IMG/VR virus record: IMGVR_UViG_3300037485_001606
Span: 1 to 62,241 of that record
Source: a virus
Direction: 5' to 3' (one strand)
DNA: 62,241 nucleotides
Position numbers and translations under genes: made by a program. Positions 4,242-26,654 of the stretch are shown piece by piece. The notes under the pieces are model-generated. The model searched no databases. It was given only the letters and a program-made list of their open reading frames with translations, and had not been told where the DNA came from. Within the stretch, counting starts at the first letter, position 1. The number at the start of each line of letters is the position of its first letter.

Positions 4242-4250
4242 GGAATAAAA

Positions 4251-6789: not shown

Positions 6790-6975
6790 ATGCTTGAATT
6801 TGCTGAAAGAACGCTGTTGGTTATCAAAGGACTTCGTCGCCAGACGGAGGACATTTTGGTGAGTGGCAGTGTGAAGGATATGGAGCAGTATCGGTTCCTG
6901 ATGGGACGCCTTGAAGGCTACAAGTTTGTTGAGATGGAAATTCAAAACCTACTCGGCAAAAACCAAGAGCAATAA
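6790..6975 (+). CDS. Small conserved phage protein
   Basis: 61 residues, mostly alpha-helical (LEFAERTLLVIKGLRRQTED, QYRFLMGRLEGYKFVEMEI). Small helical proteins of this type commonly lie between portal and GroES/scaffold genes in environmental podoviruses, but I know no function. A GGAATAATCC ribosome site precedes the ATG. The next gene starts 9 bases after its stop with an AAGGAG site, so they are probably co-transcribed. A capsid-assembly accessory role is only suggested by position. Confidence 0.75.
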   Translation: MLEFAERTLLVIKGLRRQTEDILVSGSVKDMEQYRFLMGRLEGYKFVEMEIQNLLGKNQEQ

Positions 6976-6984
6976 GGAGTTTTT

Positions 6985-7437: not shown

Positions 7438-7445
7438 GGCATGAC

Positions 7446-8363
7446 ATGAACAATGACATGAACCACGATCAGTTGGAGTTCGACCTTGGACAAGGCGAAA
7501 AAGAAGCCACGGTGACGTTTGAAAACGACGAAGCCGAAGGCAAGCAAGAACAACCGGTAGTTGAACAGAAGGAAACATCAGTTCATTCGGATGAGCTAGG
7601 CTCTGTCAACGAGGCCGTTCAGAAACGAATCGCCAAGCTGACCGCTAAGATGCGCGAGGCCGAGCGCCGCGAGCAGGCCGCCGTGGAGTATGCCAAGGGA
7701 TTGCAATCCCAGACGCAGAACCTCCAGCAACGACTAGTCAACACTGACTACAGCCGTCTAAGCGAAGCCAAAGCTCGATTGGAGTCTCAGCAGTCATCAC
7801 TGCGCCAGATTATCCAAAAGGCACGGGAAGAGAGTGACCTCGACACCGAAATGGAAGCACAAGAGCGCTTGGCCAGCCTGATACAGGAAAAAGGTCAAGT
7901 CTCTCAATGGCTAAATCAACAAGAGCACGCTGCTCGTAACCAACCTGCTCAACAGGAAGTTCCGCAACAGCGTCAACAACCAAAGCAAGCAGCCCCTGAT
8001 CCGCGTGCGGAAGACTGGGCTGCTAAAAACGAGTGGTTTGGACAAAATCGGGTAATGACTTACGCTGCATGGGGAATCCATCAGGATTTAATTGAGCGTG
8101 AGGGTGTTGACCCCCAGACCGACGAGTACTATACTGAATTGAATCGAAGAGTCAGGGAAGAATTTCCCCGGCATTTTGCAGGCGAGCAATCGTCTACTCA
8201 ATCAACCAGACAACAGCGTTCCGCGCCTGCTGTTGCCCCTGCATCCCGGAGTTCCGGAATAAATAGTGCGCGCCGAACTGTCCGGCTATCGCCGAGTCAG
8301 GTTGCTATTGCAAAGAAACTGGGTGTACCTCTTGAAGAGTATGCCAAGTACGTAAAGGAGTAA
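7446..8363 (+). CDS. Putative scaffolding protein
   Basis: 305 residues. It has an acidic N-terminus and a long predicted coiled coil (about 60-175, rich in E/Q/R: KLTAKMREAERREQ, RLESQQSSLRQIIQKARE). A Gln/Pro linker follows, then a short basic tail. This composition and the position upstream of the capsid gene are typical of internal scaffolds that guide prohead assembly and then leave. The C-terminal residues contain QVAIAKKLGVPLEEYAKY. A near-identical motif recurs in the unrelated protein at 51408-51932. Start chosen at the ATG at 7446, because the ATG at 7441 runs into a stop after two codons. Confidence 0.75.
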   Translation: MNNDMNHDQLEFDLGQGEKEATVTFENDEAEGKQEQPVVEQKETSVHSDELGSVNEAVQKRIAKLTAKMREAERREQAAVEYAKGLQSQTQNLQQRLVNTDYSRLSEAKARLESQQSSLRQIIQKAREESDLDTEMEAQERLASLIQEKGQVSQWLNQQEHAARNQPAQQEVPQQRQQPKQAAPDPRAEDWAAKNEWFGQNRVMTYAAWGIHQDLIEREGVDPQTDEYYTELNRRVREEFPRHFAGEQSSTQSTRQQRSAPAVAPASRSSGINSARRTVRLSPSQVAIAKKLGVPLEEYAKYVKE

Positions 8364-8366
8364 GTC

Positions 8367-8846
8367 ATGAGCGAAAAAATTACTATCGATAGAGCCAGCC
8401 GTTCCGCCGAAAGCCGGGACAAAGAAGTTCGTCGCAAGCCATGGCGTCCACCTTCACGTCTGGATGCACCACCTGCCCCCGAAGGGTATAAGTACCGTTG
8501 GATTCGTGCTGAAGTCAACGGGAACCTCGATAACCAAAACGTGTACAGCAAACTGCGTGAGGGATACGAACTTGTTCGTCCTGAAAATATTCCTGAGGAA
8601 TATCGTGCGACGCTGCCCACTATGGACGACGGCAAACATGCTGGCGTGATCTCCGTTGGTGGACTCTTGCTTGCCAAGATACCCGATGAGACCATTGAGG
8701 AACGAAATACTTATTTCCGCCAGAGGGCACAGGAACAGTTACATGCTGTGGACAACGAGATGATGCGTGAGAACGCCCACTCTTCAATGCGAATCCAGTC
8801 TCCGGACCGGAGTTCCCGCACAACATTCCGTCAGCCACAAGGCTGA
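8367..8846 (+). CDS. Conserved capsid-cluster protein
   Basis: 159 residues, starting three bases after the scaffold stop. The N-terminus is strongly basic (RKPWRPPSRL), followed by YKYRWIRAEVNGNLDNQNV and EGYELVRPENIPEEYR. Proteins with this Y-K-Y-R-W-I-R pattern are commonly found just upstream of the capsid gene in environmental podoviruses, but their role is not established to my knowledge. The C-terminal third is helical and polar. A virion or assembly role is inferred from position only. Confidence 0.75.
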   Translation: MSEKITIDRASRSAESRDKEVRRKPWRPPSRLDAPPAPEGYKYRWIRAEVNGNLDNQNVYSKLREGYELVRPENIPEEYRATLPTMDDGKHAGVISVGGLLLAKIPDETIEERNTYFRQRAQEQLHAVDNEMMRENAHSSMRIQSPDRSSRTTFRQPQG

Positions 8847-8872
8847 TATCTTTAATCCTGTAGGAAATTCAA

Positions 8873-9460
8873 ATGGCAAATACTATTAAGCCTTTTGGTC
8901 TGCGTCCGTCGGGTAATCTTTCTGCTACCGGTGCTCAAAAGCAATACGGTTATCAGATCGAAGACAACTACAACACAGCCATTTTTCAAGGTGATCTCGT
9001 CGTCGTATTTGACGGTTACATCATCAAGTACGCCGCCGCTACACATGCCGCTCCAACTGGTGTGTTTAACGGTGTTCAGTACAACGACCCCACTCGAGCT
9101 AACAAGCCCACGTGGAAAAACTACTACCCCGGTAGCATCAACATCACCACAGGCATCATTGCTTGCGAAGTGTTGGACGATCCGTCGCAGTTGTTCTTGG
9201 TCCAAACTGATGGTGCATTTGTTCAAGCCAACATTGGCAAGAACGCTGACCCAACATCAGGAACCACAGGCAGTGTGAACTCTGGCGTATCGAATGGCTC
9301 TTTGGCCTCCTCGAGTATCGACAAAGCCTCCGGCCTGACTTTCAAAATCGTTGGCCTCTACGAGTCCCCAGAAAATGATCTGGGTGCAAATGCAGTGGTC
9401 GTTGTTAAACTCAATCAACACGTGTACGGTAGCGTCGGTGTTGCTGCAGATGGGATTTAA
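8873..9460 (+). CDS. Putative head decoration/stabilisation protein
   Basis: 195 residues, beta-rich, with low charge. It begins MANTIKPFGLRPSGN and contains FQGDLVVVFDGYIIKYAAATHA, GVFNGVQYNDP and KIVGLYESPEN. Proteins with such an N-terminus are often encoded immediately before the capsid gene and are annotated as head or decoration proteins. The stop is followed two bases later by the capsid gene start, indicating tight co-translation. It is not itself a good match to the HK97 capsid fold. Exact role is inferred. Confidence 0.65.
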   Translation: MANTIKPFGLRPSGNLSATGAQKQYGYQIEDNYNTAIFQGDLVVVFDGYIIKYAAATHAAPTGVFNGVQYNDPTRANKPTWKNYYPGSINITTGIIACEVLDDPSQLFLVQTDGAFVQANIGKNADPTSGTTGSVNSGVSNGSLASSSIDKASGLTFKIVGLYESPENDLGANAVVVVKLNQHVYGSVGVAADGI

Positions 9461-9462
9461 TC

Positions 9463-10377
9463 ATGGCAATTACCCGTTCCCAACTAGTTAAAGAACTCGA
9501 ACCCGGCTTAAATGCCCTGTTTGGTCTGGAATACAAGCGTTACGAAAACGAGCACGAAGAGATTTTCTCTATCGAAACCTCGGATCGTGCGTTTGAAGAA
9601 GAGGTCATGCTGACGGGCTTCGGCTCCGCTCCAGTGAAGACCGAGGGCGCTGGCTTGGCATACGATACCGCTTTGGAATCGTTCACTGCTCGCTACACCC
9701 ACGAAACCATCGCTATGGCGTTTGCGCTGACGGAAGAAGCCGTTGAGGACAACCTCTATGACCGTCTTTCTGCTCGTTACACCAAAGCTTTGGCTCGCTC
9801 CATGGCCAACACTCGTCAGGTAAAAGCTGCCTCTGTGTTGAACAATGGCTTCACTGGCGGTCAGTATGCTGGTGGTGATGGCGTGGCCTTGATGGCCCTC
9901 GACCACCCCACTGCATTGGGCCCCAACTTTGCTAACCGTCCAGTAGTTGCTGCTGACTTGAACGAGACATCCCTCGAGCAAGGCATCATCGACATCGCAT
10001 CGTTCACAGACGAGCGCGGCCTGAAGGTTGCTTTGACAGCCCGCAAGATGATTGTTCCTAAGGAACTGCAGTTCACTGCAGAACGCCTGATGAAGAGCAC
10101 CTTGCGTACTTCCACTGCTGACAACGATATCAACGCAATCAAGTCCATGGGCCTGATTCCCGAAGGTTACGCTGTCAACCACTACCTGACTGACGTGGAT
10201 GCATGGTTCCTGATCACCGACGCGCCTAACGGCCTGAAGATGTTCAACCGTTCACCCATCAAGACAGCCTTCGAAGGTGACTTCGATACAGGTAACGTCC
10301 GTTACAAGGCCCGCGAGCGTTATAGCTTCGGCTGGTCTGACCCACGTGGTATCTACGGTTCACCCGGCGCGGCCTAA
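9463..10377 (+). CDS. Major capsid protein
   Basis: 304 residues. The sequence resembles the Mu gpT-like/HK97-fold major head subunits: MAITRSQLVKELEPGLNALFG, then EYKRYENEHEEIF, FTARYTHETIAMAFALTEEA, a central MALDHPT stretch and a C-terminal domain with RYKARERYSFGWSDPRG. Size, position after scaffold and a strong intrinsic terminator immediately downstream fit the most abundant virion protein. Third positions are C/T-rich in a consistent way, suggesting high expression. No N-terminal delta domain is seen, which fits a separate scaffold. Confidence 0.92.
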   Translation: MAITRSQLVKELEPGLNALFGLEYKRYENEHEEIFSIETSDRAFEEEVMLTGFGSAPVKTEGAGLAYDTALESFTARYTHETIAMAFALTEEAVEDNLYDRLSARYTKALARSMANTRQVKAASVLNNGFTGGQYAGGDGVALMALDHPTALGPNFANRPVVAADLNETSLEQGIIDIASFTDERGLKVALTARKMIVPKELQFTAERLMKSTLRTSTADNDINAIKSMGLIPEGYAVNHYLTDVDAWFLITDAPNGLKMFNRSPIKTAFEGDFDTGNVRYKARERYSFGWSDPRGIYGSPGAA

Positions 10378-10393
10378 GCGTTGAAGAAAATGG

Positions 10394-10419
10394 AAAAGGG
10401 GCCTTGTGCCCCTTTTTCT
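10394..10419 (+). terminator. Intrinsic terminator after the capsid gene
   Basis: Stem AAAAGGGGC (10394-10402) pairs with GCCCCTTTTT (10408-10417) around a five-base loop and is followed by TCTT. This is a classical rho-independent terminator 17 bases after the capsid stop. It probably lets capsid mRNA exceed downstream messages. Confidence 0.88.
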
Positions 10420-10522
10420 TTTGGGGTATATTGTCACCATCCCCGGACTTCCGGTGTATCTGACGGCTCCGGGCCGACGACATGCAGACAGATACGCCTA
10501 ACTTGCATGTAAGGAACCTATC
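10420..10522 (+). promoter_or_regulatory. Structured leader/possible promoter after capsid terminator
   Basis: Non-coding. It contains a -10-like TATATT (10427-10432), a tight hairpin CCGGA/TCCGG (10443-10454), and a longer stem GTATCTG (10456-10462) pairing with CAGATAC (10489-10495). A ribosome site AAGGAA precedes the next ATG. It likely restarts transcription for the neck/tail genes. The promoter call is weak because no clear -35 is seen. Confidence 0.4.
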
Positions 10523-11125
10523 ATGGCATTGACCACCTTCTCCGGCCCAGTCCGATCCCTCAATGGTTTTATCTCCGGCACCGCTACCGACCCCGTGTCT
10601 GTAACCACCGCGGGCAACATTACCAGCGCATACGGCACCACTTCAGCCACAACCGGCGACACCCGCTTGGTCTATGACAAGCTGACCTTCACAAGCACAG
10701 GCTCTGGCGAAACTCTCCGTGCTCTCTCTGTTGTAACTGGCGCAGGCGCTGCCGCCGCGGGCACGATTAACGGGGCACACATCAGCACTGAAATTGACAC
10801 CCCCGGAACCATCTCCGGCGCTGCTAATGCACTTCGCGCTACTTTGGGCGGCACGTCAGTTGCCCCCGGTGGCACCTTGGCTGCTCTCCAGTTGGACACC
10901 AACTTTGCATCTGGCGTGACAACCCCCGCCACATCATCGTTCATTCGCATCTCCGACAGCGGCGCGGGCACAGGCAAGATCAATAACTTCCTGAACATTG
11001 AAGCAGGCCCTGCGGCTACTATTGTTGCCACAGGCGGCGCTACTGCCAGCGGCACGATCAAGAAAATCCCAATTCTCATCGCTGGTGTTACGTATTACCT
11101 CCAAGCCGCCACGGTTTATAGTTAA
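10523..11125 (+). CDS. Putative capsid/neck beta-rich structural protein
   Basis: 200 residues, Ala/Gly/Thr-rich and nearly free of charged residues, consistent with a beta-sandwich virion protein. Recognisable segments are SGPVRSLNGFISG, GTLAALQLDTNF and IPILIAGVTYYLQAATVYS. Proteins with the same start and end are common after the capsid gene in uncultured freshwater phages. The stop codon overlaps the next ATG (TAATG). A decoration or fibre role is inferred; no catalytic motif is visible. Confidence 0.75.
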   Translation: MALTTFSGPVRSLNGFISGTATDPVSVTTAGNITSAYGTTSATTGDTRLVYDKLTFTSTGSGETLRALSVVTGAGAAAAGTINGAHISTEIDTPGTISGAANALRATLGGTSVAPGGTLAALQLDTNFASGVTTPATSSFIRISDSGAGTGKINNFLNIEAGPAATIVATGGATASGTIKKIPILIAGVTYYLQAATVYS

Positions 11126-11292
11126 TGCAAATTACCAAGGAATTCTTGGAAACTGAGATTTGTGACCTAGAAGCAGAAGCCCAGAAAGCCCAAAACTTTC
11201 TGGTCCAAGCTCAGGGCACAATCCAAGCGTACAAGATGCTGATTAATAGATTGGACGCGCCAGAAGTGGACGACGCCCAGAAAGGAGCCTGA
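11125..11292 (+). CDS. Small helical conserved phage protein
   Basis: 55 residues, one continuous amphipathic helix beginning MQITKEFLETEICDLEAEAQ and ending with LINRLDAPEVDDAQKGA. The ATG overlaps the previous stop (TAATG) and its stop lies one base before the next gene, so it is well embedded. Short proteins of this pattern recur at this place in many environmental phages. Function unknown; coiled-coil assembly factor is a guess. Confidence 0.82.
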   Translation: MQITKEFLETEICDLEAEAQKAQNFLVQAQGTIQAYKMLINRLDAPEVDDAQKGA

Positions 11293-11293
11293 T

Positions 11294-11584
11294 ATGTTTC
11301 AGTTTGACGTAAGAGCGAAGACGATGACTTCGACTGCTGCCACAGGCATCGGTCAACCACGTGCTCGTATCAAAGCAATTTACTACGTTGCAGGCACAGC
11401 AGGGTCAATTTCTTTCAAAGATGGCGATGCCAGTGGCGAAGAGAAGATTCTTTTGGCCACCCCTGCCAGTACCGCAGGTAATGGCTCCACTTATGTTCTG
11501 GTCCCCGGCGACGGCGTAGTGTTCAAGGGCGACCCCTATCTCACCATCACTGGTCCCACCTCGGTGACCTTCTTTTACGGTTAA
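11294..11584 (+). CDS. Small beta-rich structural protein
   Basis: 96 residues. It begins MFQFDVRAKTM and contains RARIKAIYYVAGTAGSISF and a C-terminal ITGPTSVTFFYG, suggesting a small beta-sandwich. Ribosome site AAAGGAG precedes the ATG. It is a conserved small protein of this gene block, probably virion-associated, with no known enzymatic motif. Confidence 0.75.
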   Translation: MFQFDVRAKTMTSTAATGIGQPRARIKAIYYVAGTAGSISFKDGDASGEEKILLATPASTAGNGSTYVLVPGDGVVFKGDPYLTITGPTSVTFFYG

Positions 11585-11594
11585 GGAGTCCATC

Positions 11595-11780
11595 ATGGGA
11601 CGTGCAGCAAAAATGGCAATTGATCAGTACCAAGGCGAAGTTCAGCCCGGTGCCAACAAACAGGACATGTCTAAGGGCGGTCCAAAACAAACTCCTCGCA
11701 AGGATTACCAGAAGCCTTTTGCTTCTCCATCCCCACGCGGCGTTGGGGAAGCCCGGAACAAGCCCTGTAAAATGTACTAA
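11595..11780 (+). CDS. Small basic hypothetical protein
   Basis: 61 residues, Lys/Gly/Pro-rich and probably disordered (GANKQDMSKGGPKQTPRKDY). AAGGAG lies six bases before the ATG. It ends with NKPCKMY. The next gene starts two bases downstream. No family recognised. Confidence 0.7.
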   Translation: MGRAAKMAIDQYQGEVQPGANKQDMSKGGPKQTPRKDYQKPFASPSPRGVGEARNKPCKMY

Positions 11781-11782
11781 TC

Positions 11783-12043
11783 ATGGCTAAAACTCCTGCT
11801 TGGCAACGTAAGGAGGGCAAGTCCGAAAAAGGCGGGTTGAACGCCAAAGGACGTGCCTCTGCAAAGGCTCAAGGAATGAACTTGAAGCCACCGGCACCTG
11901 CGCCTAAGACCAAGGAAGCAAAAGGACGCAAGGCGTCCTTTTGTGCAAGGATGGAAGGCATGAAGTCCAAATTGACAAGCGAGAAAACAGCCCGTGATCC
12001 AGACAGCCGAATCAATAAAAGCCTTAGGGCATGGAAATGTTAG
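11783..12043 (+). CDS. Small basic conserved phage protein (DUF6321-like)
   Basis: 86 residues, strongly basic. The stretch AWQRKEGKSEKGGLNAKGRA is a hallmark of a widespread small phage family that I believe is catalogued as DUF6321. The C-terminus FCARMEGMKSKLTSEKTARD is also typical. It may bind nucleic acid or protect packaged DNA, but that is inferred from charge only. The family name is from memory and uncertain. Confidence 0.75.
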   Translation: MAKTPAWQRKEGKSEKGGLNAKGRASAKAQGMNLKPPAPAPKTKEAKGRKASFCARMEGMKSKLTSEKTARDPDSRINKSLRAWKC

Positions 12044-12046
12044 ACC

Positions 12047-12292
12047 ATGGAAATGATGATCTGGAACGTCGTTCTCACGGCAATCGTAGGAATGCTCGGA
12101 TTCGTCGTCAAAGAGAAGTTTGCCGAGTTAAGCCGGATCAGCATTTTATTAAACAGAACACGGGAAGAAGTGGCGCGGGATCACATCACCCGTTCTGAGT
12201 TTAGAGCGGACATGCAGCAGCTACTTGATCGTTTTGATCGTATTGAACGAAAAATTGATGCAATAGGAGCGCATGATGCCCGCAGTAAGTAA
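12047..12292 (+). CDS. Small membrane-anchored coiled-coil protein
   Basis: 81 residues. Residues 4-22 (MIWNVVLTAIVGMLGFVVKE) form one membrane span. The rest is a charged coiled coil (SEFRADMQQLLDRFDRIERK). This architecture suits a lysis accessory, an i-spanin-like protein or a membrane-tethered virion factor. No partner outer-membrane lipoprotein gene is nested nearby, so a spanin role is not supported. Its 3' end overlaps the next gene by 17 bases. Confidence 0.7.
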   Translation: MEMMIWNVVLTAIVGMLGFVVKEKFAELSRISILLNRTREEVARDHITRSEFRADMQQLLDRFDRIERKIDAIGAHDARSK

Positions 12293-12686
12293 GAAGCAAA
12301 AACGCTTGATGGATGCAGCGGCACACAACCCTGCATTTGCCAAAAAAGTCGGGATTCCTGTTTCCGTTGCTAAGGATTACAGTGAGTCGAGCAAGGGTAG
12401 AAAATTTAGGAAAGGCGGTGACGCTATGAAATCATGTGGAACTAAAGCATACGCTAAGGGCGGACTGGCAATGAAGGGCGAGGGCATTGCCAAAAAAGGC
12501 TTTGCCAAGGGCGGCATGGCCATGTCTGGCGTGCCTAAAAAAGGTCAAATCAGTGCTTCCGGCCCTGATATGGCAGGCCCCCAAGGTAAGACTCTGAGCC
12601 AACCTGTCAAGAAGTCTGTTACAGGCGACAGCGTGCAGGTTCGGGGTGTTGGCGCAGCTCGCGCACGTACCGCAAAAATCTACTAA
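12276..12686 (+). CDS. Small basic phage protein with repeated KGG motifs
   Basis: 136 residues. The N-terminus VSKKQKRLMDAAAHNP plus KKVGIPVSVAKDY is a common phage small-protein signature of unknown function. The middle carries KGG repeats (RKGGDAMK, AKGGLAMK, AKGGMAMS) like motifs in other virion proteins here. Start chosen at 12276 because AGGAG then lies six bases upstream; the ATG at 12273 leaves only three. It overlaps the preceding gene by 17 bases. Confidence 0.7.
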   Translation: MPAVSKKQKRLMDAAAHNPAFAKKVGIPVSVAKDYSESSKGRKFRKGGDAMKSCGTKAYAKGGLAMKGEGIAKKGFAKGGMAMSGVPKKGQISASGPDMAGPQGKTLSQPVKKSVTGDSVQVRGVGAARARTAKIY

Positions 12687-12689
12687 GCC

Positions 12690-13370
12690 ATGACCACTTC
12701 CGGCGTTTCTGCCTACAACCTTGACTTCGATGAGATCATCCTCGAAGCGTATGAGCGTTGTGGCCTTCAAGTTAGGGATGGCTACGATGCCAGAACTGCC
12801 CGCCGGTCGATAAATTTGATGTTTGCAGAGTGGGCTAATCGCGGCCTGAATCTGTGGACTATTGAGCAGCGGCAGGTGATATTGGAAGCCAACGTGCATG
12901 AGTACGATCTGCCTGCGGATACGGTAGATGCCTTGTCTGCGGTAATTCGCACCAATGCAGGTACTTCCAATCAGCAAGACATCACCATTGACCGGATTGG
13001 CAGTGCTGAGTACCTGCATGTGCCCAACAAATATACGCCCTCGCGCCCTGCACAGTTTTATGTCCAGCGCACGGTCCCGGCCAAGCTATTCTTGTACCCT
13101 GCTCCTGATGCCACCCAGACTTACATCTTCCGGTACTATGCCATTCGGCGCATACAGGAAACTGGGGCGTTTACAAATACCGCGGACATCTCTTTCCGGT
13201 TTTTGCCTTGTTTAATCGCAGGGTTATCGTACTACTTGGCCATCAAGAAGGCTCCAGACCGGATTCAGATTCTCAAGCAGTTCTATGAGGAAGAGTTTGC
13301 CCGGGCTGCAGCAGAGGACCGTGAACGGTCAAGCTACTTCGCGGTGCCTACTTATACGGGGAACTACTAA
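12690..13370 (+). CDS. Head-to-tail adaptor-like protein
   Basis: 226 residues. It resembles the P22 gp4/T7 gp11-type connector proteins: helical N-terminus FDEIILEAYERCGLQVRDG, ARRSINLMFAEWANRGLNLW, then a beta region with LPADTVDALSAVIR and RPAQFYVQR, and a helical C-terminus IQILKQFYEEEFARAAAEDR. Such rings extend the portal and bind the tail. The stop overlaps the next start (TAATGG). Confident as a neck protein; the exact homology class is inferred. Confidence 0.8.
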   Translation: MTTSGVSAYNLDFDEIILEAYERCGLQVRDGYDARTARRSINLMFAEWANRGLNLWTIEQRQVILEANVHEYDLPADTVDALSAVIRTNAGTSNQQDITIDRIGSAEYLHVPNKYTPSRPAQFYVQRTVPAKLFLYPAPDATQTYIFRYYAIRRIQETGAFTNTADISFRFLPCLIAGLSYYLAIKKAPDRIQILKQFYEEEFARAAAEDRERSSYFAVPTYTGNY

Positions 13371-13705
13371 TGGCCGCTGGTTACGCATCAGGCAAATTTG
13401 CAATTGCCCTGTGTGACCAGTGCGGGCAGAGGTTTAAGCTAAATTTGCTCATCAAGGACTGGAAGGGTTTTAAAGTATGCACAGAGTGCTACGAACCCAA
13501 ACACCCTCAGTTGGAGCCCAAGCGCAACATTAACGAGCCTCAGGCCCTGCTGCAGCCGCGTCCGGAGGCTCGTATGGGCGTCACGGTGTATGTAGGCTTC
13601 ACAGTAGACACTTCTTTTGCTAGTATTGGTATGCAACCAATGCCCCCTGCACGGCCTTTGGCCGCTGGAGCCATGCTTGGAGCGGTAACGACGAGCATCA
13701 CATGA
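13370..13705 (+). CDS. Zinc-ribbon small protein
   Basis: 111 residues. Two Cys pairs (LCDQCGQRF and VCTECYEPK) form a clear four-Cys zinc ribbon within residues 15-45. The following region is Pro/Ala-rich. It is translationally coupled at both ends (TAATG start; the 3' end overlaps the next ATG by four bases). Such proteins often sit between the two adaptor genes in related phages. The role is unknown; structural zinc stabilising the neck is possible. Confidence 0.78.
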   Translation: MAAGYASGKFAIALCDQCGQRFKLNLLIKDWKGFKVCTECYEPKHPQLEPKRNINEPQALLQPRPEARMGVTVYVGFTVDTSFASIGMQPMPPARPLAAGAMLGAVTTSIT

Positions 13706-14553
13706 ACTACACCCAATTAAGCAATGCCATTCAGGCATACACCAACAATACTGATCCCACCTTCATTGCGGAGATTCCAGTGTTTGTGCAGCAAACTGAG
13801 CAGCGCGTTTATAACGCTGTTCAGATTGCCAATCTACGCAAGAACATGACGGGCGGGCTTACTGCGGGCAATAAATACCTGACTTGCCCTACTGATTTCC
13901 TATCGGCGTATTCCCTTGCCGTCTATCCCCAAGCCAGCACAACTGCCACCGGGCTATCAGGCGCATTGACGATCACAGTGGCCAGTGCCACCAACCTTGT
14001 CATAGGCATGTATGTCACTGGGACAAATATTGCCACAGGCGCGGTAATTGTCTTGATTGTGGGCACGACGGTGACGCTAAGTTTGGCCAATACGGGCGCA
14101 GTCGCAGGAGCGGTGGATTTCCAAGGGGATTACACATATCTGTTGAATCGGGATGTGAATTACATCCGAGAGGTGTATCCAAACCCTGCTTATTTGGCTC
14201 TTCCAAAGTATTACGCCATCTTCGGACCAAATTCCAGCGACGTGAACGAGCTTACGTTCATCGTAGGCCCCACTCCAGATGTTTCCTATAGAGCGGAGCT
14301 TCATTTCTACTATTACCCAGCGTCCATTACGACTGTGACGAGTGGCACAACATGGCTGGGCGACAACTTTGATTCTGTCCTTTTGTATGGCTCCTTGGTT
14401 GAGGCATATACATGGATGAAGGGCGAGCAGGACATGATGGCGTTGTACGATGGCAAGTTTAAAGAGGCCGTTGGGCTACTCAAGAACTTGGGAGATGGCA
14501 AGCAGCGGGGCGATGCCTATCAAGATGGCCAAGTCAAACTTCCAGTAAGGTAA
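13702..14553 (+). CDS. Neck/tail adaptor protein with inserted beta domain
   Basis: 283 residues. The framework is a gp6/adaptor-like fold: MNYTQLSNAIQAYTNN, FVQQTEQRVYNAVQIANLRK and a helical end DSVLLYGSLVEAYTWMKGE. Residues about 78-145 are a Thr/Val/Ala-rich insertion (SGALTITVASATNLVIGMYV) absent from minimal adaptors, probably an Ig-like decoration. It overlaps the zinc-ribbon gene by four bases. A completion or adaptor role is inferred from neighbours and length. Confidence 0.75.
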   Translation: MNYTQLSNAIQAYTNNTDPTFIAEIPVFVQQTEQRVYNAVQIANLRKNMTGGLTAGNKYLTCPTDFLSAYSLAVYPQASTTATGLSGALTITVASATNLVIGMYVTGTNIATGAVIVLIVGTTVTLSLANTGAVAGAVDFQGDYTYLLNRDVNYIREVYPNPAYLALPKYYAIFGPNSSDVNELTFIVGPTPDVSYRAELHFYYYPASITTVTSGTTWLGDNFDSVLLYGSLVEAYTWMKGEQDMMALYDGKFKEAVGLLKNLGDGKQRGDAYQDGQVKLPVR

Positions 14554-18989: not shown

Positions 18990-20138
18990 ATGAGCATTAG
19001 ACAACATAATCTGGGCAGCATTGTCAAGCCGGGGTTCAATGCGCTTGGGCCACAGACAAGTGTCATTACTTACCAGCCGTACCTGTATTCGTGGGGAAAT
19101 AACGAATACGGGCAGCTTGGGCTAGGCGATATGACATATTACTCATCACCTAAACAAGTAGGTGCGCTTACTAACTGGTTGAACTTAGCGGGTGGGTATA
19201 AACACAGCATCGCTACTAAATCAGACGGAACACTTTGGACATGGGGATATAACATCAATGGTGCATTAGGTCTAGGTAACACCACTAACTATTCAAGCCC
19301 TAAACAAGTTGGTTCTTTAACTACTTGGTCGTATGTAACTGCTGGATATAACTTTTCGGCGGCTATTAAAACTGATGGTACTCTTTGGACATGGGGTGTA
19401 GGCACTAATGGACAGTTGGGACATGGTAATACAACTAATCGTTCTTCACCTGTTCAAGTTGGTGCTTTAACAACGTGGCTCACTGTTGCTGCCGGATATA
19501 GACAGACTGGGGCTGTTAAGACTGATGGAACTCTATGGATGTGGGGTGGTAACGATCAAGGACAACTAGGTCTAGGCAACACAACAACCTACTCAAGCCC
19601 TAAACAAGTAGGCGCATTGACTAATTGGAAAGATATACGAGTTGGCTATTACTCCTCTGTAGCCACTAAAACTGATGGAACTATCTGGACATGGGGAGCT
19701 AGTTTAGATGGGGCGTTAGGATTAGGCAACACCACATACTACTCCAGCCCTAAACAAGTAGGTGCATTAACTACTTGGCTGACAGGATTTACCTCTAATA
19801 ATAGCGCTTTCACTGTAGCTACTAAAACAGATGGTACTCTTTGGTCGTGGGGGTATAACGGCATAGGTCAACTAGGGTTAGGTAACACCACCAACTTTTC
19901 AAGTCCTAAACAAGTAGGATTACTCACTAATTGGAAATCTGTAACTCTTGGAATGAGGCAAAACTACACCGTAGCTACTAAAACAGATGGCACTTTATGG
20001 ACATGGGGGTATAACGTTCATGGACAATTAGGTCTAGGCAACACTACTCACTACTCTAGCCCTAAACAAGTAGGTGCATTAACTAATTGGCTGACAATAG
20101 CAAGTGGAACCGGCCATGTCCTAGCCACCCTCTATTAA
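18990..20138 (+). CDS. RCC1-repeat beta-propeller protein 1 (type A N-terminus)
   Basis: 382 residues: a 36-residue leader with the motif KPGFNALGPQTS, then seven RCC1/ATS1-like repeats of about 50 residues. The repeats are built on LWTWGYN-GQLGLGNTT-YSSPKQVGALTNW and end with KTDGT. Seven repeats make one closed propeller. The residues after the NW or TW of each repeat vary strongly, as expected for exposed surface loops. RCC1 proteins are best known from eukaryotes, but related repeats occur in phage tail regions. A receptor-binding or surface-display role is inferred from neighbouring fibres. Base use is more A/T-rich than in flanking genes. Confidence 0.85.
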   Translation: MSIRQHNLGSIVKPGFNALGPQTSVITYQPYLYSWGNNEYGQLGLGDMTYYSSPKQVGALTNWLNLAGGYKHSIATKSDGTLWTWGYNINGALGLGNTTNYSSPKQVGSLTTWSYVTAGYNFSAAIKTDGTLWTWGVGTNGQLGHGNTTNRSSPVQVGALTTWLTVAAGYRQTGAVKTDGTLWMWGGNDQGQLGLGNTTTYSSPKQVGALTNWKDIRVGYYSSVATKTDGTIWTWGASLDGALGLGNTTYYSSPKQVGALTTWLTGFTSNNSAFTVATKTDGTLWSWGYNGIGQLGLGNTTNFSSPKQVGLLTNWKSVTLGMRQNYTVATKTDGTLWTWGYNVHGQLGLGNTTHYSSPKQVGALTNWLTIASGTGHVLATLY

Positions 20139-20147
20139 GAACACACT

Positions 20148-21305
20148 ATGCCATCAACAACACTCGTATCAGGCGTCCAATACTCCGGCATCTGGACAAT
20201 GCAACAGGTGAATGCCGCTGTAGCTGCGGGGACTTGGCCGGGGCTGCCACAGTTGTGGGTTTGGGGTGCGAATAATGCGGGTCAGTTGGGTCTTGGCAAC
20301 ACTACCGACTACTCATCCCCCAAACAAGTTGGTGCGTTAACTAATTGGTCTAAACTTGCGGCCGGTAATGGTCACAGTCTGGTTATTAAAACAGATAATA
20401 CTTTGTGGGCGTGGGGGCAAGGTAATCAAGGTCGATTAGGTTTGGGGAATACAACATACTACTCATCCCCTAAGCAAGTCGGTGCTCTGACAAATTGGTT
20501 AAAAATTTCTACGGGTTCAGGTGCTACTGGTAGTATTAAAACCGATGGAACTTTGTGGTTATGGGGAGCCGCTAACTATGGACAATTAGGGCGTGGTAAC
20601 ACTACAGATTATTCGTCACCAGTCCAATTGGGTGCTTTAACTACATGGTCAGCGTTGTCTTTAGGTAATGGTTTTACAATGGCCATTACAACTAGCGGAG
20701 CTTTATATGCGTGGGGTATAAATAATACGGGTCAATTAGGTTTAGGTAATACAACAAGCTACTCAAGCCCCAAACAAGTTGGTTTATTAACAACATGGGC
20801 AACAATTTCTGCTGGCAATTCAATGAATGTTGCAGTAAAAACAGATGGAACCATGTGGACTTGGGGGGCAAACCCTTTTGGTGATCTAGGCTTAGGCAAC
20901 ACTACATACTACTCAAGCCCTAAACAAGTTGGCGCACTGACTACTTGGAGCCAAGTAACAAACGGGCAATATCAATGCGCGGCTATAAAGACAGATGGTA
21001 CTCTTTGGGCTTGGGGTTACAACGAAAGCGGAAGACTTGGTTTGGGTGATATTGTTAATCGTTCTAGTCCGGTGCAAGTTGGTGCGCTTACTAATTGGTT
21101 AGTGGTGGATTCGTTAAGCACCTCTACGAAAGCTATCAAAACAGATGGAACACTGTGGTCATGGGGTAAGGGGAACGGTGGTCAATCTGGTTTAGGAAAC
21201 ACCACCAATTATTCCAGTCCTAAACAAGTTGGAACCTTGACAACATGGACAACCATTGGTTGTGGTTGGGGCGGTAGTTTTGTATTAGCAATCAAGACCA
21301 CTTGA
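20148..21305 (+). CDS. RCC1-repeat beta-propeller protein 2 (type B N-terminus)
   Basis: 385 residues. The N-terminal module SGVQYSGIWTMQQVNAAVAA is a recurrent attachment-like motif in environmental phage tail proteins. Seven RCC1 repeats follow (LWVWGANNAGQLGLGNTT and so on), forming one seven-blade propeller. It starts 9 bases after protein 1. The A-B pair is duplicated as the pair at 23092 and 24238. Loops at the end of each blade (such as LAAGNGHSLV, STGSGATGS) differ from those of the other copies. Probably a virion surface protein. Confidence 0.85.
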   Translation: MPSTTLVSGVQYSGIWTMQQVNAAVAAGTWPGLPQLWVWGANNAGQLGLGNTTDYSSPKQVGALTNWSKLAAGNGHSLVIKTDNTLWAWGQGNQGRLGLGNTTYYSSPKQVGALTNWLKISTGSGATGSIKTDGTLWLWGAANYGQLGRGNTTDYSSPVQLGALTTWSALSLGNGFTMAITTSGALYAWGINNTGQLGLGNTTSYSSPKQVGLLTTWATISAGNSMNVAVKTDGTMWTWGANPFGDLGLGNTTYYSSPKQVGALTTWSQVTNGQYQCAAIKTDGTLWAWGYNESGRLGLGDIVNRSSPVQVGALTNWLVVDSLSTSTKAIKTDGTLWSWGKGNGGQSGLGNTTNYSSPKQVGTLTTWTTIGCGWGGSFVLAIKTT

Positions 21306-21325: not shown

Positions 21326-23095
21326 ATGAACAAAACACTCCACTTCCTTTCTGGCATCCCTCGTTCCGGCTCTACGGTGCTTGCTGCCATCCTCAACCAG
21401 AACCCAATGACTCACGTTTCAACAACGTCTGGTCTGGTTCATGCGCTTGATGGATTGGCGAACACTTGGCATTCTGCTGGGCTGCTGAACGAGAACGACC
21501 CTGAGAGAACTAAGCTGGCTCAGACAATGCGTGGTGCGATTGATGCGTTCTACGAGGATGAGACTGCCCCTGTCATCATCGACAAGTCCCGTGGCTGGCC
21601 TATCGCGCAGATTATGGCGGCTATGTCTCAAGTGCTGGGCAAGCAGCCTAAAATCATCGCTACGGTTCGTTCAGTGCCAGACTGTGCTGCGTCCTTTGTG
21701 CGTGTGGCAAAGCCTGAGAACCTTGACGAGTTCATGTACTCCGGTCAGTTGATGGATCACCTCAAAGCTGCTTACATCTCCCTCCAGAACGGCTACAACT
21801 TCGCTCCTGAGAACTTCTTGTTCGTTGAGTATGAAGACCTCTTGGCTGACCCCAAAGCGCAGTTGGCCCGTATCCATGCGTTCCTTGAACTGCCTGAGTT
21901 CAGCTACGACTTCGACAACATTGACGGTTCTACAGTGGCTGAAGATGACGAGAACTTACACGGTCATGCGGGGATGCACGATGTCAAGCCCAAGCTGGAA
22001 GCACAGCACAAGCAAGACCCCAAAGACTTGCTGAAATCCCACTACTCTTCATTCTGTCAGCCTGAGTTCTGGCTAGACACACCGCGCACAACACCAGAGC
22101 TTCATGCACTGGATATGCAGCTTGCAGCCTCTACTACAGGTGACTTCGCTGAAGGCTGGCGCTTGGCTCAACAACTGGAAGCTGACGAACCCACGAACCA
22201 CCGCGCAGCCTACAACCGTGGCTGGTATCTGCTGCGTCAAGGCCAGATTCAAAAGGGTTATCAACTGATGGACAGAGGTCGTGTGGCTGGTGTGTTTGGC
22301 AACAAGAAGCCTGATGTACCCACACCACAATGGGACGGTAAGACTAAAGGCATTGTCCTGCTTAACCTAGAAGGTGGCTTGGGTGACCAGATTCACCAAG
22401 TGCGTTATGCCAAGTACATCGCTGCCCGTGGCTGTAAAGTCATTGTGGCTTGCACAGGTTCACTCGCTTCTTTGTTTGTTGACGTTGAAGGCGTGTCCTC
22501 CGTGATTCAACATGAAGCTGTGTTCGGCATCTACCACGACTTCTGGGTGGCTGGTATGTCGGCTGTAGTGCCACTAGGCTTTGATTTGGCAGATATCTCT
22601 GGTGCGCCCTACCTGACTAAGCCTACGACGATTAAAGGCCGTAAGAAGCGCATTGGCTTGCGCTGGCAAGGGTCTACTCAGTTTGAACATGAGCATCACA
22701 AAGCCTTCCCATACGAGTTGATGTTTGCGGCTGTCAAGGACGCAGATGCTGAGTTCATTAGCTTACAACGTGACGAAGGCGCAGACGCTGCTCCTGCTTG
22801 GGTAAAGCAAGTACCTCTGAATAGCTGGGAAGACACCCGCGCTGCCGCTGCCAGTTGCGACTTGGTGATTAGCTCTTGCACGTCAGTCAGTCACATCGCT
22901 GCTGCTATGGGAGTTGAGACTTGGGTGATAACCCCCGTTATGCCATACTTCCTGTACGCCCTTGAAGGCGAGAGCACACCGTACTACGACAGCATGAAGC
23001 TGATGCGCCAAGAAGTGTTTGGCGACTGGCAAGCTCCGTTCGACCACATCAAAGACCGCTTGGGTGAGAAGCCCATGCTAAGGAGTGTTGCATGA
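21326..23095 (+). CDS. Sulfotransferase / GT9-like glycosyltransferase fusion
   Basis: 589 residues. Residues 1-245 are a sulfotransferase domain: the PAPS 5'-phosphosulfate loop GIPRSGSTVL (10-19), the 3'-phosphate region ATVRSVPDCAASFVR, and VEYEDLLADPKAQLARIHAF. A short TPR-like helical linker (about 265-315, RAAYNRGWYLLRQGQ) leads to a C-terminal domain like GT9/heptosyltransferases (VLLNLEGGLGDQIHQVRYAK; KRIGLRWQGS; CDLVISSCTSVSHIAAAMG). It would transfer sulfate from PAPS and perhaps a sugar. The stop overlaps the start of propeller protein 3 (ATGA), so expression is coupled. Acceptor unknown. Confidence 0.85.
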   Translation: MNKTLHFLSGIPRSGSTVLAAILNQNPMTHVSTTSGLVHALDGLANTWHSAGLLNENDPERTKLAQTMRGAIDAFYEDETAPVIIDKSRGWPIAQIMAAMSQVLGKQPKIIATVRSVPDCAASFVRVAKPENLDEFMYSGQLMDHLKAAYISLQNGYNFAPENFLFVEYEDLLADPKAQLARIHAFLELPEFSYDFDNIDGSTVAEDDENLHGHAGMHDVKPKLEAQHKQDPKDLLKSHYSSFCQPEFWLDTPRTTPELHALDMQLAASTTGDFAEGWRLAQQLEADEPTNHRAAYNRGWYLLRQGQIQKGYQLMDRGRVAGVFGNKKPDVPTPQWDGKTKGIVLLNLEGGLGDQIHQVRYAKYIAARGCKVIVACTGSLASLFVDVEGVSSVIQHEAVFGIYHDFWVAGMSAVVPLGFDLADISGAPYLTKPTTIKGRKKRIGLRWQGSTQFEHEHHKAFPYELMFAAVKDADAEFISLQRDEGADAAPAWVKQVPLNSWEDTRAAAASCDLVISSCTSVSHIAAAMGVETWVITPVMPYFLYALEGESTPYYDSMKLMRQEVFGDWQAPFDHIKDRLGEKPMLRSVA

Positions 23096-24228
23096 GTTTT
23101 AGATACAGTTCGGGGATAAACAAGCCGGGGTTTAATCCGCTGGGGGTGCAGACGAGTACGAATACATACTTCCCATACTTATATAGCTGGGGAACTAATA
23201 GTTCTGGGCAACTTGGTTTAAATGATGGCACAAACCGTTCAAGCCCAACTCAAGTTGGCAGTTTATATGATTGGACTACTGTTTCTGCTGGGGGTAATTT
23301 CGGTGCGGCTGTTAAAACTAATGGTACTTTGTGGACGTGGGGTGATAATACAAGTGGTAAATTAGGTCTTGGAAATACAACATCTTACTCATCACCAAAA
23401 CAAGTTGGGGCACTGACAAATTGGGCAAAAGTTCAGGCCTGTAGTGCTTGTTGTTTTGCTATTAAAACCAATGGAACTTTATGGTCTTGGGGTGCTGGAT
23501 CAGGGGGAAGACTGGGGCTAAGTACGGCATTTAGTTATTCTTCTCCTGTACAAGTAGGTACTTTAACAAACTGGTTACATATTGCTAATACCTATGATTC
23601 AGGAACGGCAATTAAAACCGATGGCACTTTATGGTCTTGGGGAACTAACGCAATAGGACAGTTGGGGTTAGGTGATACTACCAATAGAAATAGCCCAGTT
23701 CAGGTTGGTACTTTAACAAATTGGTCGCAAGTAAATACAACCCCAAGAGAAGCTGTTATAGCTACTAAAACGGATGGAACTCTTTGGTCTTGGGGGCGAA
23801 ATAACAACGGTAGGCTTGGGCTTGGTAATACCACAAGTTACTCTAGTCCAAAACAAGTAGGTACATTAACAAACTGGCTATCTGCATTTGGTGGATATAG
23901 ATTTGGTTTGGCTATTAAAACCGATGGGACACTATGGTCTTGGGGTATGAATACTAGCGGTGAATTGGGTCTTAATAGTGCAACACCCTCTTTCTCCAGC
24001 CCTCAACAAGTAGGTACGCTAACTAATTGGCTCAGTGTTGCAGGAGGGTACTATCATAGCGTAGCGGTAAGCACTGATAATAAACTATGGTCTTGGGGAA
24101 AAAATAATATAGGACAGCTTGGTCTTGGTAATACAACTAACTATTCATCCCCAAAACAAGTTGGCGCAGCTACACAGTGGGTTTCTGCGTATGCTCAAGG
24201 CGCATATTCTTTTGCCACATTTTATTAA
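23092..24228 (+). CDS. RCC1-repeat beta-propeller protein 3 (type A N-terminus)
   Basis: 378 residues. Its leader (INKPGFNPLGVQTST) matches that of protein 1, followed by seven RCC1 repeats. Its ATG overlaps the sulfotransferase stop (ATGA), so it is translated right after the modifying enzyme. Variable blade loops include a Cys cluster in repeat 2 (QACSACCFAI). DNA is markedly A/T-rich with Thr/Asn/Ser-rich loops that offer many possible sulfation or glycosylation acceptors. Inferred receptor-binding or decoy surface protein. Confidence 0.84.
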   Translation: MSFRYSSGINKPGFNPLGVQTSTNTYFPYLYSWGTNSSGQLGLNDGTNRSSPTQVGSLYDWTTVSAGGNFGAAVKTNGTLWTWGDNTSGKLGLGNTTSYSSPKQVGALTNWAKVQACSACCFAIKTNGTLWSWGAGSGGRLGLSTAFSYSSPVQVGTLTNWLHIANTYDSGTAIKTDGTLWSWGTNAIGQLGLGDTTNRNSPVQVGTLTNWSQVNTTPREAVIATKTDGTLWSWGRNNNGRLGLGNTTSYSSPKQVGTLTNWLSAFGGYRFGLAIKTDGTLWSWGMNTSGELGLNSATPSFSSPQQVGTLTNWLSVAGGYYHSVAVSTDNKLWSWGKNNIGQLGLGNTTNYSSPKQVGAATQWVSAYAQGAYSFATFY

Positions 24229-24237
24229 AAGAACACT

Positions 24238-25407
24238 ATGCCAGTAACAACATCAGTATCAGGCGTTCAATACTCCGGCATCTGGAGTCTCGCAGGGCAA
24301 GCTAACGCTAAGGCGTTGGGGACTTGGCCTATCGCTTATGGGCCTCAAGGTTTATGGAGTTGGGGCAGTAACGGTCTAGGAAAATTAGGCTTAGGAAATC
24401 TTACCGCGTATTCCTCCCCTAAACAAATAGGAAGTTTAACAGCTTGGAAATCTATATCCGCTGGGGATGTACAAGGTTTAGCCATTAAATTAGACGGCAC
24501 ACTTTGGTCTTGGGGCGCAGGCGCTAATGGTGTACTGGGTCTTGGCAATACAACCAACTATTCCTCACCTAAACAAGTGGGCGCATTAACCAATTGGTTA
24601 AAAGTTTCAGCAGGGTATGATAAATTCAATTTAGCAACAAAGACTGACGGTACGCTATGGGCTTGGGGAAAAAATAATAATGGTCAACTCGGTTTAAGTA
24701 ACACCACCTATTATTCATCACCAAAGCAAATCGGCTCTGGGACTACTTGGTCAGACATAGCCGCCGCAGGATATTGTTCATTAGCTATCAAAACAGACGG
24801 AACTTTATGGTCGTGGGGATACAACGGTGCGGGTCAACTAGGTTTGGGCAACACAACTAGTTATTCTTCTCCTAAGCAAGTTGGAGCTTTAACTACTTGG
24901 TCTAAAGTAAATGGCGGCACTGCTCATAGTTTAGCTATCAAAACAGACGGAACGCTTTGGTCTTGGGGTGATGGAGCCTATGGTAAATTGGGCTTAGGCA
25001 ATACAACTTATTACTCATCCCCTAAGCAAGTTGGTGCATTAACTACGTGGTCAAATTCTGTTGGAGCTGCTTACCGAACTTTAGCTGTTAAAACCGATGG
25101 AACGCTTTGGTCTTGGGGGTTTGGATACGCAGGTGAACTAGGTTTAGGTAACACTACAGATTATTCTTCGCCTAAACAAATAGGCGCATTAACAAGTTGG
25201 GCTATTGTTCCTACTGGGTGCGGAAATACATTTTCTATGGCAATTAAGACGGATAAAACATTATGGGTTTGGGGTAGAAATGCTGGAGGTTATTTGGGAC
25301 TTGGAAATACAACCAACTATTCCTCACCTAAACAAGTTGGATCATTGACCACTTGGCTTAATATAAGCAATGGCGCAGACTCTACATTAGCAATCCAAAC
25401 AGCATAG
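24238..25407 (+). CDS. RCC1-repeat beta-propeller protein 4 (type B N-terminus)
   Basis: 389 residues. N-terminal SGVQYSGIWSLAGQANAKAL matches protein 2, with seven RCC1 repeats after it (LWSWGSNGLGKLGLGN and onward). It follows protein 3 by 9 bases, the same spacing as between proteins 1 and 2, showing that the pair duplicated as a unit. Codon choice between repeats differs, so nucleotide identity is lower than protein identity. Likely virion surface. Confidence 0.84.
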   Translation: MPVTTSVSGVQYSGIWSLAGQANAKALGTWPIAYGPQGLWSWGSNGLGKLGLGNLTAYSSPKQIGSLTAWKSISAGDVQGLAIKLDGTLWSWGAGANGVLGLGNTTNYSSPKQVGALTNWLKVSAGYDKFNLATKTDGTLWAWGKNNNGQLGLSNTTYYSSPKQIGSGTTWSDIAAAGYCSLAIKTDGTLWSWGYNGAGQLGLGNTTSYSSPKQVGALTTWSKVNGGTAHSLAIKTDGTLWSWGDGAYGKLGLGNTTYYSSPKQVGALTTWSNSVGAAYRTLAVKTDGTLWSWGFGYAGELGLGNTTDYSSPKQIGALTSWAIVPTGCGNTFSMAIKTDKTLWVWGRNAGGYLGLGNTTNYSSPKQVGSLTTWLNISNGADSTLAIQTA

Positions 25408-25425
25408 TCCAGAGTTAGAATTTAA
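25408..25425 (+). repeat. 18-bp flank repeat, copy 2
   Basis: Exact match to 21306-21323, again directly after the stop of a type B propeller gene. Supports duplication of the propeller cassette including its downstream edge. Confidence 0.9.
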
Positions 25426-25444
25426 TTTTTAAAAAGGAAAAATC

Positions 25445-25834
25445 ATGTCATTATTCGTACGCATTCAAAACAATCTCGTAACCGACTGCTGGGATACACC
25501 TCCCCCTGCTGGTCAAGATGGTTGGAAATCAGCCGTTGAAGTTCGTCCTTCAATCACAGCGCATCGTCAAGGCTACACAGCCCACACGTTTAATCTGTCC
25601 ACTGACCCCGTGCAGATTGTGTACAACACCTACGACATCCCTGTCGAAGACCGCAAAGCTGGCATGAAAGCCAATGCCTCGTTCAGCTTCCAGCAAGTTG
25701 TCCAAGAGCAAATGCGTGACCCATCTAAGTACGACCCCGCTGCTGTTGCTGCTGCACAAGCTGCCGTTGCTCCAAAGGTTGCTGCCATCGAAGCTGCCAC
25801 AACGCACGACGAACTTGATACACTGATGGGATGA
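25445..25834 (+). CDS. Hypothetical protein of fibre/lysis junction
   Basis: 129 residues. N-terminal half is beta-like (MSLFVRIQNNLVTDCWD), and the C-terminal third is an Ala-rich helix (AAVAAAQAAVAPKVAAIEAA). Similar small proteins occur next to fibre genes and may be fibre-assembly or attachment proteins, but I do not recognise a family. The ATG has a strong AAAAAGGAAAAATC site. Its stop overlaps the APS kinase start (ATGA). G+C returns to the phage average here after the A/T-rich propeller gene. Confidence 0.7.
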   Translation: MSLFVRIQNNLVTDCWDTPPPAGQDGWKSAVEVRPSITAHRQGYTAHTFNLSTDPVQIVYNTYDIPVEDRKAGMKANASFSFQQVVQEQMRDPSKYDPAAVAAAQAAVAPKVAAIEAATTHDELDTLMG

Positions 25835-26268
25835 AAATCCTCATCCTCGGTTTACCCGGAACTGGCAAAACCACACTAGCAGAAGCTCTCGCAAGGGAGC
25901 TTCAGTGCGTTCACTTCAACGCTGACGACATACGCAAGCACATCAACAAGGACTTGGGCTTCTCTGAAGCTGACCGGGTTGAGCAAGCTAGGCGTATGGG
26001 TCATCTGTGCAACATCACAAGTAAGTGGGGCGCTAACGTCATTGCTGACTTCGTTTGCCCTACAGAGGAAACTCGTAAGGCTTTCGACGCAGACTTTGTT
26101 ATATGGGTAGACCGTATCAAAGAGGGACGCTTTGCTGACACAAACAAGATATTTGTACCACCAGTAAAGTTCAACTCTAGGGTGACAGGTGCTTTCGATA
26201 ACTGCTTCCCAACGTATCAGGCAGAGCAACTAGCTGGGATGATTCGCAGCTTTAGAAAGACGTTATGA
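25831..26268 (+). CDS. cysC: Adenylylsulfate (APS) kinase-like protein
   Basis: 145 residues. P-loop GLPGTGKTTLAEALA (7-21), then HFNADDIRKHINKDLGFSEA and DRVEQARRMG, which match the APS-binding D-x-x-R...DLGFS..DR-E--RR-G pattern of CysC. ADFVCPTEETR and WVDRIKEGRFADTNKIFVPP also match CysC-type proteins. It would make PAPS (ATP + APS), the donor for the sulfotransferase 2.7 kb upstream. It is shorter than bacterial CysC (about 200). It overlaps both neighbours by four bases (ATGA), tying it to the holin and endolysin genes. It could phosphorylate another substrate, but the APS signature is good. Confidence 0.82.
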   Translation: MKILILGLPGTGKTTLAEALARELQCVHFNADDIRKHINKDLGFSEADRVEQARRMGHLCNITSKWGANVIADFVCPTEETRKAFDADFVIWVDRIKEGRFADTNKIFVPPVKFNSRVTGAFDNCFPTYQAEQLAGMIRSFRKTL

Positions 26269-26654
26269 GTGATATTACTGGCCTTGGTGCTGTAACTGAA
26301 CTCGCTTCCACGGTCATCAATAAAATTTGGCCCGACAAGAGCGAAGCGGAAAGGCAGCAGCTTGCAGCAGCCGTGATGGTTGTCCAAGGCCAGATTGATA
26401 TAAACAAGGTTGAAGCCGCAAGCCCCTCTGTCTTCGTGAGTGGCTGGAGACCTTTTATAGGGTGGGTATGCGGTGTAGCCTGCGCTTGGAACTGGATTGG
26501 GCTAAAGGTAGCCCTATTTGTCGCTGCGTACTTGGGTCACCCCTTGGATATGCAACCCGCAGATGTATCTGAAATGATGCCCGTCTTGCTGGGTATGCTG
26601 GGCCTAAGCGGATTTAGAACAGTGGAAAAGATCAAGGGTGTAAACAGGTTATGA
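26265..26654 (+). CDS. Holin (3-TM family)
   Basis: 129 residues. Hydrophobic segments around 57-75 (GWRPFIGWVCGVACAWNW), 78-92 and 105-118 (MPVLLGMLGLSGF) match the three-TM holin family found in phages and gene transfer agents (GWRPFIGW...GLSGFRTVEK). It would permeabilise the inner membrane to release or activate the endolysin encoded next. ATGA overlaps join it to the genes on both sides. Confidence 0.86.
   Translation: MSDITGLGAVTELASTVINKIWPDKSEAERQQLAAAVMVVQGQIDINKVEAASPSVFVSGWRPFIGWVCGVACAWNWIGLKVALFVAAYLGHPLDMQPADVSEMMPVLLGMLGLSGFRTVEKIKGVNRL

Follow-up and report, generated by a model that had tools for sequence, protein, structure and literature searches.

A probable viral sulfation module that pairs an APS-kinase-like protein with a sulfotransferase-glycosyltransferase fusion among receptor-binding genes

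The stretch analyzed here (the window) is the 62,241-nt virus record IMGVR_UViG_3300037485_001606 of IMG/VR, which carries terminase, portal, head, primase and polymerase genes. Within its tail-fiber block, RCC1 beta-propeller genes surround an open reading frame (ORF) for a predicted sulfotransferase (ST) fused to a glycosyltransferase (GT), termed ST-GT below, and a gene for a small kinase related to adenylyl-sulfate (APS) kinases lies downstream (Table 1). The ST-GT stop codon overlaps the start of the next propeller gene at 23092 (ATGA), as an earlier reading of the sequence alone had noted. That reading proposed a sulfation module that makes and uses 3'-phosphoadenylyl sulfate (PAPS). Domain, fold, residue and co-occurrence tests now agree with this proposal, and a sulfation module is the probable function of the locus.

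The two predicted enzymes

Sequence and model identify the ST-GT protein as a putative PAPS-type sulfotransferase (~residues 1–250) joined by a tetratricopeptide repeat (TPR)-like linker (~260–320) to a GT-B glycosyltransferase (~340–580). The Pfam family Sulfotransfer_3 (PF13469) matches residues 7–190 (E = 7.8e-17; 62.7 bits against a cut-off of 27), and Pfam also gives a weak TPR signal at residues 267–310. Among solved structures, tyrosylprotein and SULT sulfotransferases are closest to the ST by sequence. The proposed PAPS-binding loop is borne out, since GxPRSGST is invariant in 23 phage STs from two clades that are ~30% identical. The same holds for R115 and S123, a motif presumed from established sulfotransferase knowledge to bind the 3'-phosphate, and both residues are kept in the window protein.

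The GT half falls below the family cut-off by sequence (Glyco_transf_9, 11.1 bits against 22). Because Pfam failed to recognize it, an AlphaFold2 (AF2) model of the protein (pLDDT 82.4) was compared with known structures using Foldseek. The GT half matches TibC, WaaC, WaaF, OGT and SPY/SPINDLY (E from 4e-4 to 3e-6), so the earlier label "GT9-like" was correct, and the ST half matches TPST1/2 (E ~1e-7). The ST half shares with Sulfotransfer_3 proteins, including TPST1/2, the PAPS loop, the R/S 3'-phosphate pair and the fold; unlike TPST1/2, to which it is ~20% identical, it is fused to a GT-B domain and encoded beside propeller genes. Similarly, the GT half resembles TibC, the heptosyltransferase of the adhesin TibA, as well as the GT9 and GT41 (OGT, SPY) enzymes in its GT-B fold, TPR-like segment and gene position next to an adhesin, but it is fused to a sulfotransferase and its sequence similarity is under the family cut-offs.

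The kinase is matched by the Pfam family APS_kinase (PF01583) over residues 3–84 only (E = 2.1e-16; 60.7 bits against a cut-off of 21.1), and its score with the NCBIfam model TIGR00455 (apsK) is below the cut-off (57.5 against 138.7 bits). A PDB profile search leads to APS kinases. The AF2 model (pLDDT 91.7) matches CysC and the kinase domain of PAPS synthase at E = 3e-9, and each of the 50 listed Foldseek matches is either an APS kinase or an enzyme that includes such a domain. The protein thus falls with APS kinases and not with unrelated P-loop kinases.

Residue roles in the APS pocket were taken from complexes of Mycobacterium tuberculosis CysC (PMC4373884), and conservation was counted over 144 unique viral and bacterial members of the kinase family. 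Besides the P-loop and fold, the window kinase shares with CysC the residues D32, R35, F44 and R49, with a spacing identical to that of D480, R483, F492 and R497. The CysC counterparts of R35 and R49 contact the phosphate and sulfate of APS, and that of F44 stacks on the adenine (PMC4373884). K13, D32, R35 and R49 are present in all 144 members and F44 in 141. On the other hand, D478 of the CysC LDGD motif, a ligand of a magnesium-bound water, is replaced by an asparagine (N30 in 143/144), and the canonical lid, which contains R559, the catalytic K562 and F576 (PMC4373884), gives way to a DTNxxF motif (T104 and F108 in 144/144, D103 in 143/144). R100 (136/144) and F108 are possible counterparts of CysC lid residues; the catalytic lysine has no invariant counterpart, the nearest candidate being K106 (82/144). 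These three departures set the 145-residue protein apart from standard CysC and mark a divergent APS-kinase-like family with what appears to be a new lid. The earlier assignment as an APS kinase therefore stands for the fold, P-loop and pocket, but not for the canonical lid, its lysine or the LDGD aspartate. APS is the best inference for the substrate, judging from the conserved pocket.

Table 1. Genes and sequence motifs of the module and its surroundings; positions refer to the window.
Feature	Position	Strand	Evidence or remark
RCC1 beta-propeller, candidate acceptor or adhesin	18990–20138	+	Pfam RCC1
RCC1 beta-propeller, directly upstream of ST-GT	20148–21305	+	Pfam
ST-GT, predicted sulfotransferase-glycosyltransferase fusion, 589 aa	21326–23095	+	Pfam, AF2 model, Foldseek
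ST-GT: 5'-phosphosulfate-binding loop GIPRSGSTVL, residues 10–19	21353–21382	+	GxPRSGST invariant in 23 STs
ST-GT: 3'-phosphate-binding stretch, R115 to S123	21668–21694	+	both invariant in 23 STs
ST-GT: GT-B motif EGGLGDQ, residues 349–355	22370–22390	+	G351–Q355 invariant in 32 ST-GT proteins
RCC1 beta-propeller, start overlaps ST-GT stop (ATGA)	23092–24228	+	Pfam; overlap
RCC1 beta-propeller	24238–25407	+	Pfam
129-aa protein, located after the propellers and overlapping the kinase start with its stop	25445–25834	+	
APS-kinase-like enzyme, 145 aa	25831–26268	+	Pfam, PDB profile, AF2, Foldseek
Kinase: P-loop, residues 7–14	25849–25872	+	G7, L8, G12, K13 invariant
Kinase: N30-A31-D32...R35, counterparts of CysC D478 (to N), D480, R483	25918–25935	+	
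Kinase: F44...R49, counterparts of CysC F492, R497	25960–25977	+	
Kinase: family-specific lid motif DTN-x-x-F, residues 103–108, replacing the canonical lid	26137–26154	+	
Holin, start overlaps kinase stop (late operon context)	26265–26654	+	GTA_holin_3TM

Recurrence in viruses and bacteria

Searches of viral contigs yielded ST-GT at 80 loci and the kinase at 60. The kinase lies 0.4–4.5 kb downstream in 51 of the 67 ST-GT loci that are long enough to decide, mostly exactly at the end of a homologue of the 129-residue gene, which directly precedes the kinase in most ST-GT loci. In viral contigs, the two genes are thus paired much more often than chance would give, and the co-occurrence expected in related phages is strong. 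In a tree of 69 kinases, those associated with ST-GT are scattered, and well-supported branches force at least 7 changes of the ST-GT label. Therefore, the pairing arose repeatedly, with different kinases recruited to the same slot. An RCC1 propeller gene is located directly upstream of ST-GT in 67 of 73 loci and directly after it in 56 of 76.

A second architecture was found in 30 loci, some near-identical (L082–L112 and L138), where a stand-alone ST (26–31% identical) immediately precedes the kinase and no RCC1 gene is present. The ST frame overlaps the kinase start by 4 or 1 nt in 29 of these loci; in L082, the two genes are 4 nt apart. The blocks of L083 and L109 consist of fiber or C-type-lectin-like proteins, a 142–144 aa protein, the ST and the kinase. 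This alternative block is flanked by homologues of the window's own flanking genes in L083 and L095, and thus holds the same genome position as the block of the window. The L082 block includes a reverse transcriptase; a C-type-lectin-like target, an Avd-like ORF and the reverse transcriptase lie directly upstream of the ST and kinase (L082:1084-3574), an arrangement that by inspection is a diversity-generating retroelement.

In a 372-kb contig (L119), an ST, a TPR-GT-like ORF and the kinase are followed by a 1208-aa fiber-like gene. Two isolates have related arrangements: the ST of Synechococcus phage S-SKS1 is located between kelch-like ORFs (the second identified by inspection only), while Synechococcus phage BUCT-ZZ01 has the order tail fiber, small protein, RCC1 propeller, GT homologue. 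These phages share with the window an ST or GT domain beside kelch-like or RCC1 propeller genes, but their ST and GT are unfused and a kinase is not next door; the TPR-GT protein of BUCT-ZZ01 also differs from ST-GT in having a methyltransferase-like C-terminal region (weak match). The ST therefore adjoins receptor-binding proteins of unrelated folds, namely RCC1 propellers, C-type-lectin-like proteins and, in S-SKS1, kelch propellers. Its presence beside receptor-binding genes of such varied architecture indicates that the enzyme travels with them.

Members of the kinase family are also common among Alphaproteobacteria, SAR11 being one example, and are in most cases fused to, or located next to, a nucleotidyltransferase with an HxGH motif. 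Of 47 kinase genes in 44 bacterial genomes, 15 have a Sulfotransfer_3 neighbor no more than 5.5 kb away, compared to 0.41 expected under uniform gene placement. Some of these clusters adjoin exported proteins: two exoproteins of the two-partner secretion (TPS) type in L161, a PATR passenger in L158, and type I secretion ABC and HlyD genes in L150 and L159. In L161, a Sideroxydans metagenome-assembled genome, the large TPS exoproteins flank the kinase and ST and have nearly identical N-termini (L161:5696-20356).

SAR11 kinase neighborhoods mostly have no adjacent ST, and the linkage there rests on whole-genome co-occurrence. Among 148 Pelagibacteraceae genomes, kinase and Sulfotransfer_3 co-occur (50/71 versus 15/77; Fisher p = 3e-10, uncorrected for phylogeny or completeness). 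In three SAR11 loci (L173, L186 and L205, ~4000–13800), the kinase and HxGH nucleotidyltransferase belong to a conserved cluster whose other ORFs look by inspection like FAD oxidoreductase, methyltransferase, Rieske-type and SET-domain proteins; no ST is adjacent.

The nucleotidyltransferase of relatives and the source of APS

ATP sulfurylase is missing from the window, as the sequence-only reading had noted when it reasoned that APS must come from the host, and a search there for the HxGH nucleotidyltransferase gave no match. Since the window has no HxGH domain, this requirement may hold for this virus. It is less certain for its relatives, as 14 distinct kinases associated with ST-GT carry a fused HxGH domain that might itself make APS. 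Moreover, among virus records with the kinase and no Sulfotransfer_3 gene, the nucleotidyltransferase is adjacent, near or fused in 15 of 15, and so the kinase is not tied to the ST alone.

The HxGH domain of these relatives is ~115 residues long and resembles NadM-type NMN adenylyltransferases. Its profiles match NMN and phosphopantetheine adenylyltransferases and, weakly, pantothenate synthetase. Two profiles were used to look for an identity as ATP sulfurylase and gave no match to that enzyme at E≤0.1. The arrangement is reminiscent of animal PAPSS, where a kinase domain is followed by ATP sulfurylase; the relatives likewise have an N-terminal APS-kinase-like domain, followed instead by the NadM-type-like domain, which is absent from the window. 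Examples of such kinase-HxGH fusions are L011:12156-12941 and WRQ05410.1 of Xanthomonas phage AhaSv.

It is plausible that kinase and HxGH domain together act as a compact PAPS synthase. Such an enzyme would explain why SAR11 genomes that hold the pair have sulfotransferases while ATP sulfurylase and canonical CysC are nearly absent. In 12 such genomes (Pelagibacteraceae-titled), picked for holding the kinase and including some incomplete single-cell genomes, a Sulfotransfer_3 match is present in 12 and Sat in 1, while CysD and canonical apsK above its cut-off are found in none. The full proposal, namely that SAR11, other bacteria and phages make PAPS with a compact synthase in which the second half is no ATP sulfurylase of a known type, and that it feeds adhesin-decorating sulfotransferases in phages, is tentative; the match of the HxGH profile to NMN adenylyltransferases and the presence of the pair without an ST in T4-like phages speak against it. 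If correct, it would hint at a second way of making PAPS for bacteria such as SAR11, where sulfotransferases occur but ATP sulfurylase and canonical APS kinase are undetected.

Proposed role and competing explanations

We propose that the locus is a late-expressed module for the sulfation of adhesins, with a probability of roughly 0.55. The kinase would 3'-phosphorylate APS, presumably host-derived here, to PAPS; the ST domain would spend PAPS to sulfate an acceptor, and the GT-B domain would add a sugar. The likeliest acceptors are the neighboring RCC1 propeller host-binding proteins, which could, for example, first receive a sugar and then a sulfate, on that sugar or on the protein, while being made during tail assembly. 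The catalytic activities, the identity of the acceptor, the late timing of expression and the effect on host binding are parts of this model that we infer. Dozens of related viruses have the same pair of enzymes, and some bacteria encode it next to surface adhesins; these viruses therefore probably attach sulfate to the proteins with which they bind their hosts. In directed searches of the open literature, no phage sulfotransferase with an adhesin-decorating role came up; if the model is true, phages sulfate their own adhesins and so add a chemical means of host recognition to variation in sequence.

Several points weigh against this model. A nearby kinase is missing from 16 of the 67 decidable ST-GT loci, although in one of them (L047) a kinase is encoded elsewhere in the record. 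Some phages carry kinase and nucleotidyltransferase with no Sulfotransfer_3 gene, and the kinase has neither the LDGD aspartate nor an invariant lid lysine. By inspection, some bacterial copies of the kinase-nucleotidyltransferase (L149, L164) are located in polysaccharide or sugar-nucleotide clusters. The acceptor is a candidate, and the enzyme activities are predicted.

The sugar-nucleotide clusters would instead fit a module that acts late in infection to sulfate a glycan of the host surface (lipopolysaccharide (LPS), capsule or exopolysaccharide). This could, for example, prevent progeny phages from binding again to debris, or shut out other phages. Glycans are frequent targets of both sulfotransferases and heptosyltransferase-like GTs. 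Nevertheless, this explanation appears unlikely, as the ST stays with the receptor-binding genes when those are swapped, adjoins several unrelated adhesin folds, and has, like the GT half, protein-acting enzymes among its nearest solved relatives (TPST for the ST, TibC/OGT for the GT). Of the two targets named by the sequence-only reading, the phage's own propellers and host LPS, adhesin self-modification is thus favored: the receptor-binding genes that the ST accompanies encode several folds, and in bacteria the module adjoins exported adhesins.

A NadR-like role in NAD salvage, with the kinase acting on nicotinamide riboside, the HxGH domain (where present) as NMN adenylyltransferase and the ST linkage incidental, is still less probable. 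It would account for the HxGH profile, which matches NMN adenylyltransferases rather than ATP sulfurylases, for the T4-like and jumbo phages that have the pair among replication-type genes without an ST, and for SAR11 copies, often in catabolic-looking clusters without an ST. However, the fold and profile of the kinase point to APS kinases, its APS-pocket residues are invariant, the linkage to ST is repeated in phages and bacteria, and the HxGH domain is absent from the window and from the ST-coupled kinases. Least probable is a 3'-kinase for another activated nucleotide whose group the "sulfotransferase" would move from a PAPS-like donor, modeled on the Campylobacter cytidine diphosphoramidate kinase, an APS-kinase homologue whose name is found in the capsule literature of that genus: the unusual lid would fit, but R35 and R49 (APS phosphate and sulfate contacts) and F44 (adenine stacking) are kept and the nearest ST relatives use PAPS.

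The 129-aa protein has no Pfam or PHROG match and is possibly an assembly chaperone; a 141–144 aa protein takes its place in the lectin architecture. L047 combines ST-GT, a second ST and ~8 RCC1 propeller genes in a single locus, its kinase-nucleotidyltransferase lying elsewhere in the record. Degenerate kinase remnants of 39 and 65 aa are present behind the 129-aa gene in two loci (L026:9025-9144 and L067:3402-3599), and in another, the kinase is fused to a DUF2061 membrane domain (L036:16265-16894). In Xanthomonas phage AhaSv (L219:3114-3809), an annotated cysteine dioxygenase is encoded ~3 kb from the kinase-nucleotidyltransferase fusion.

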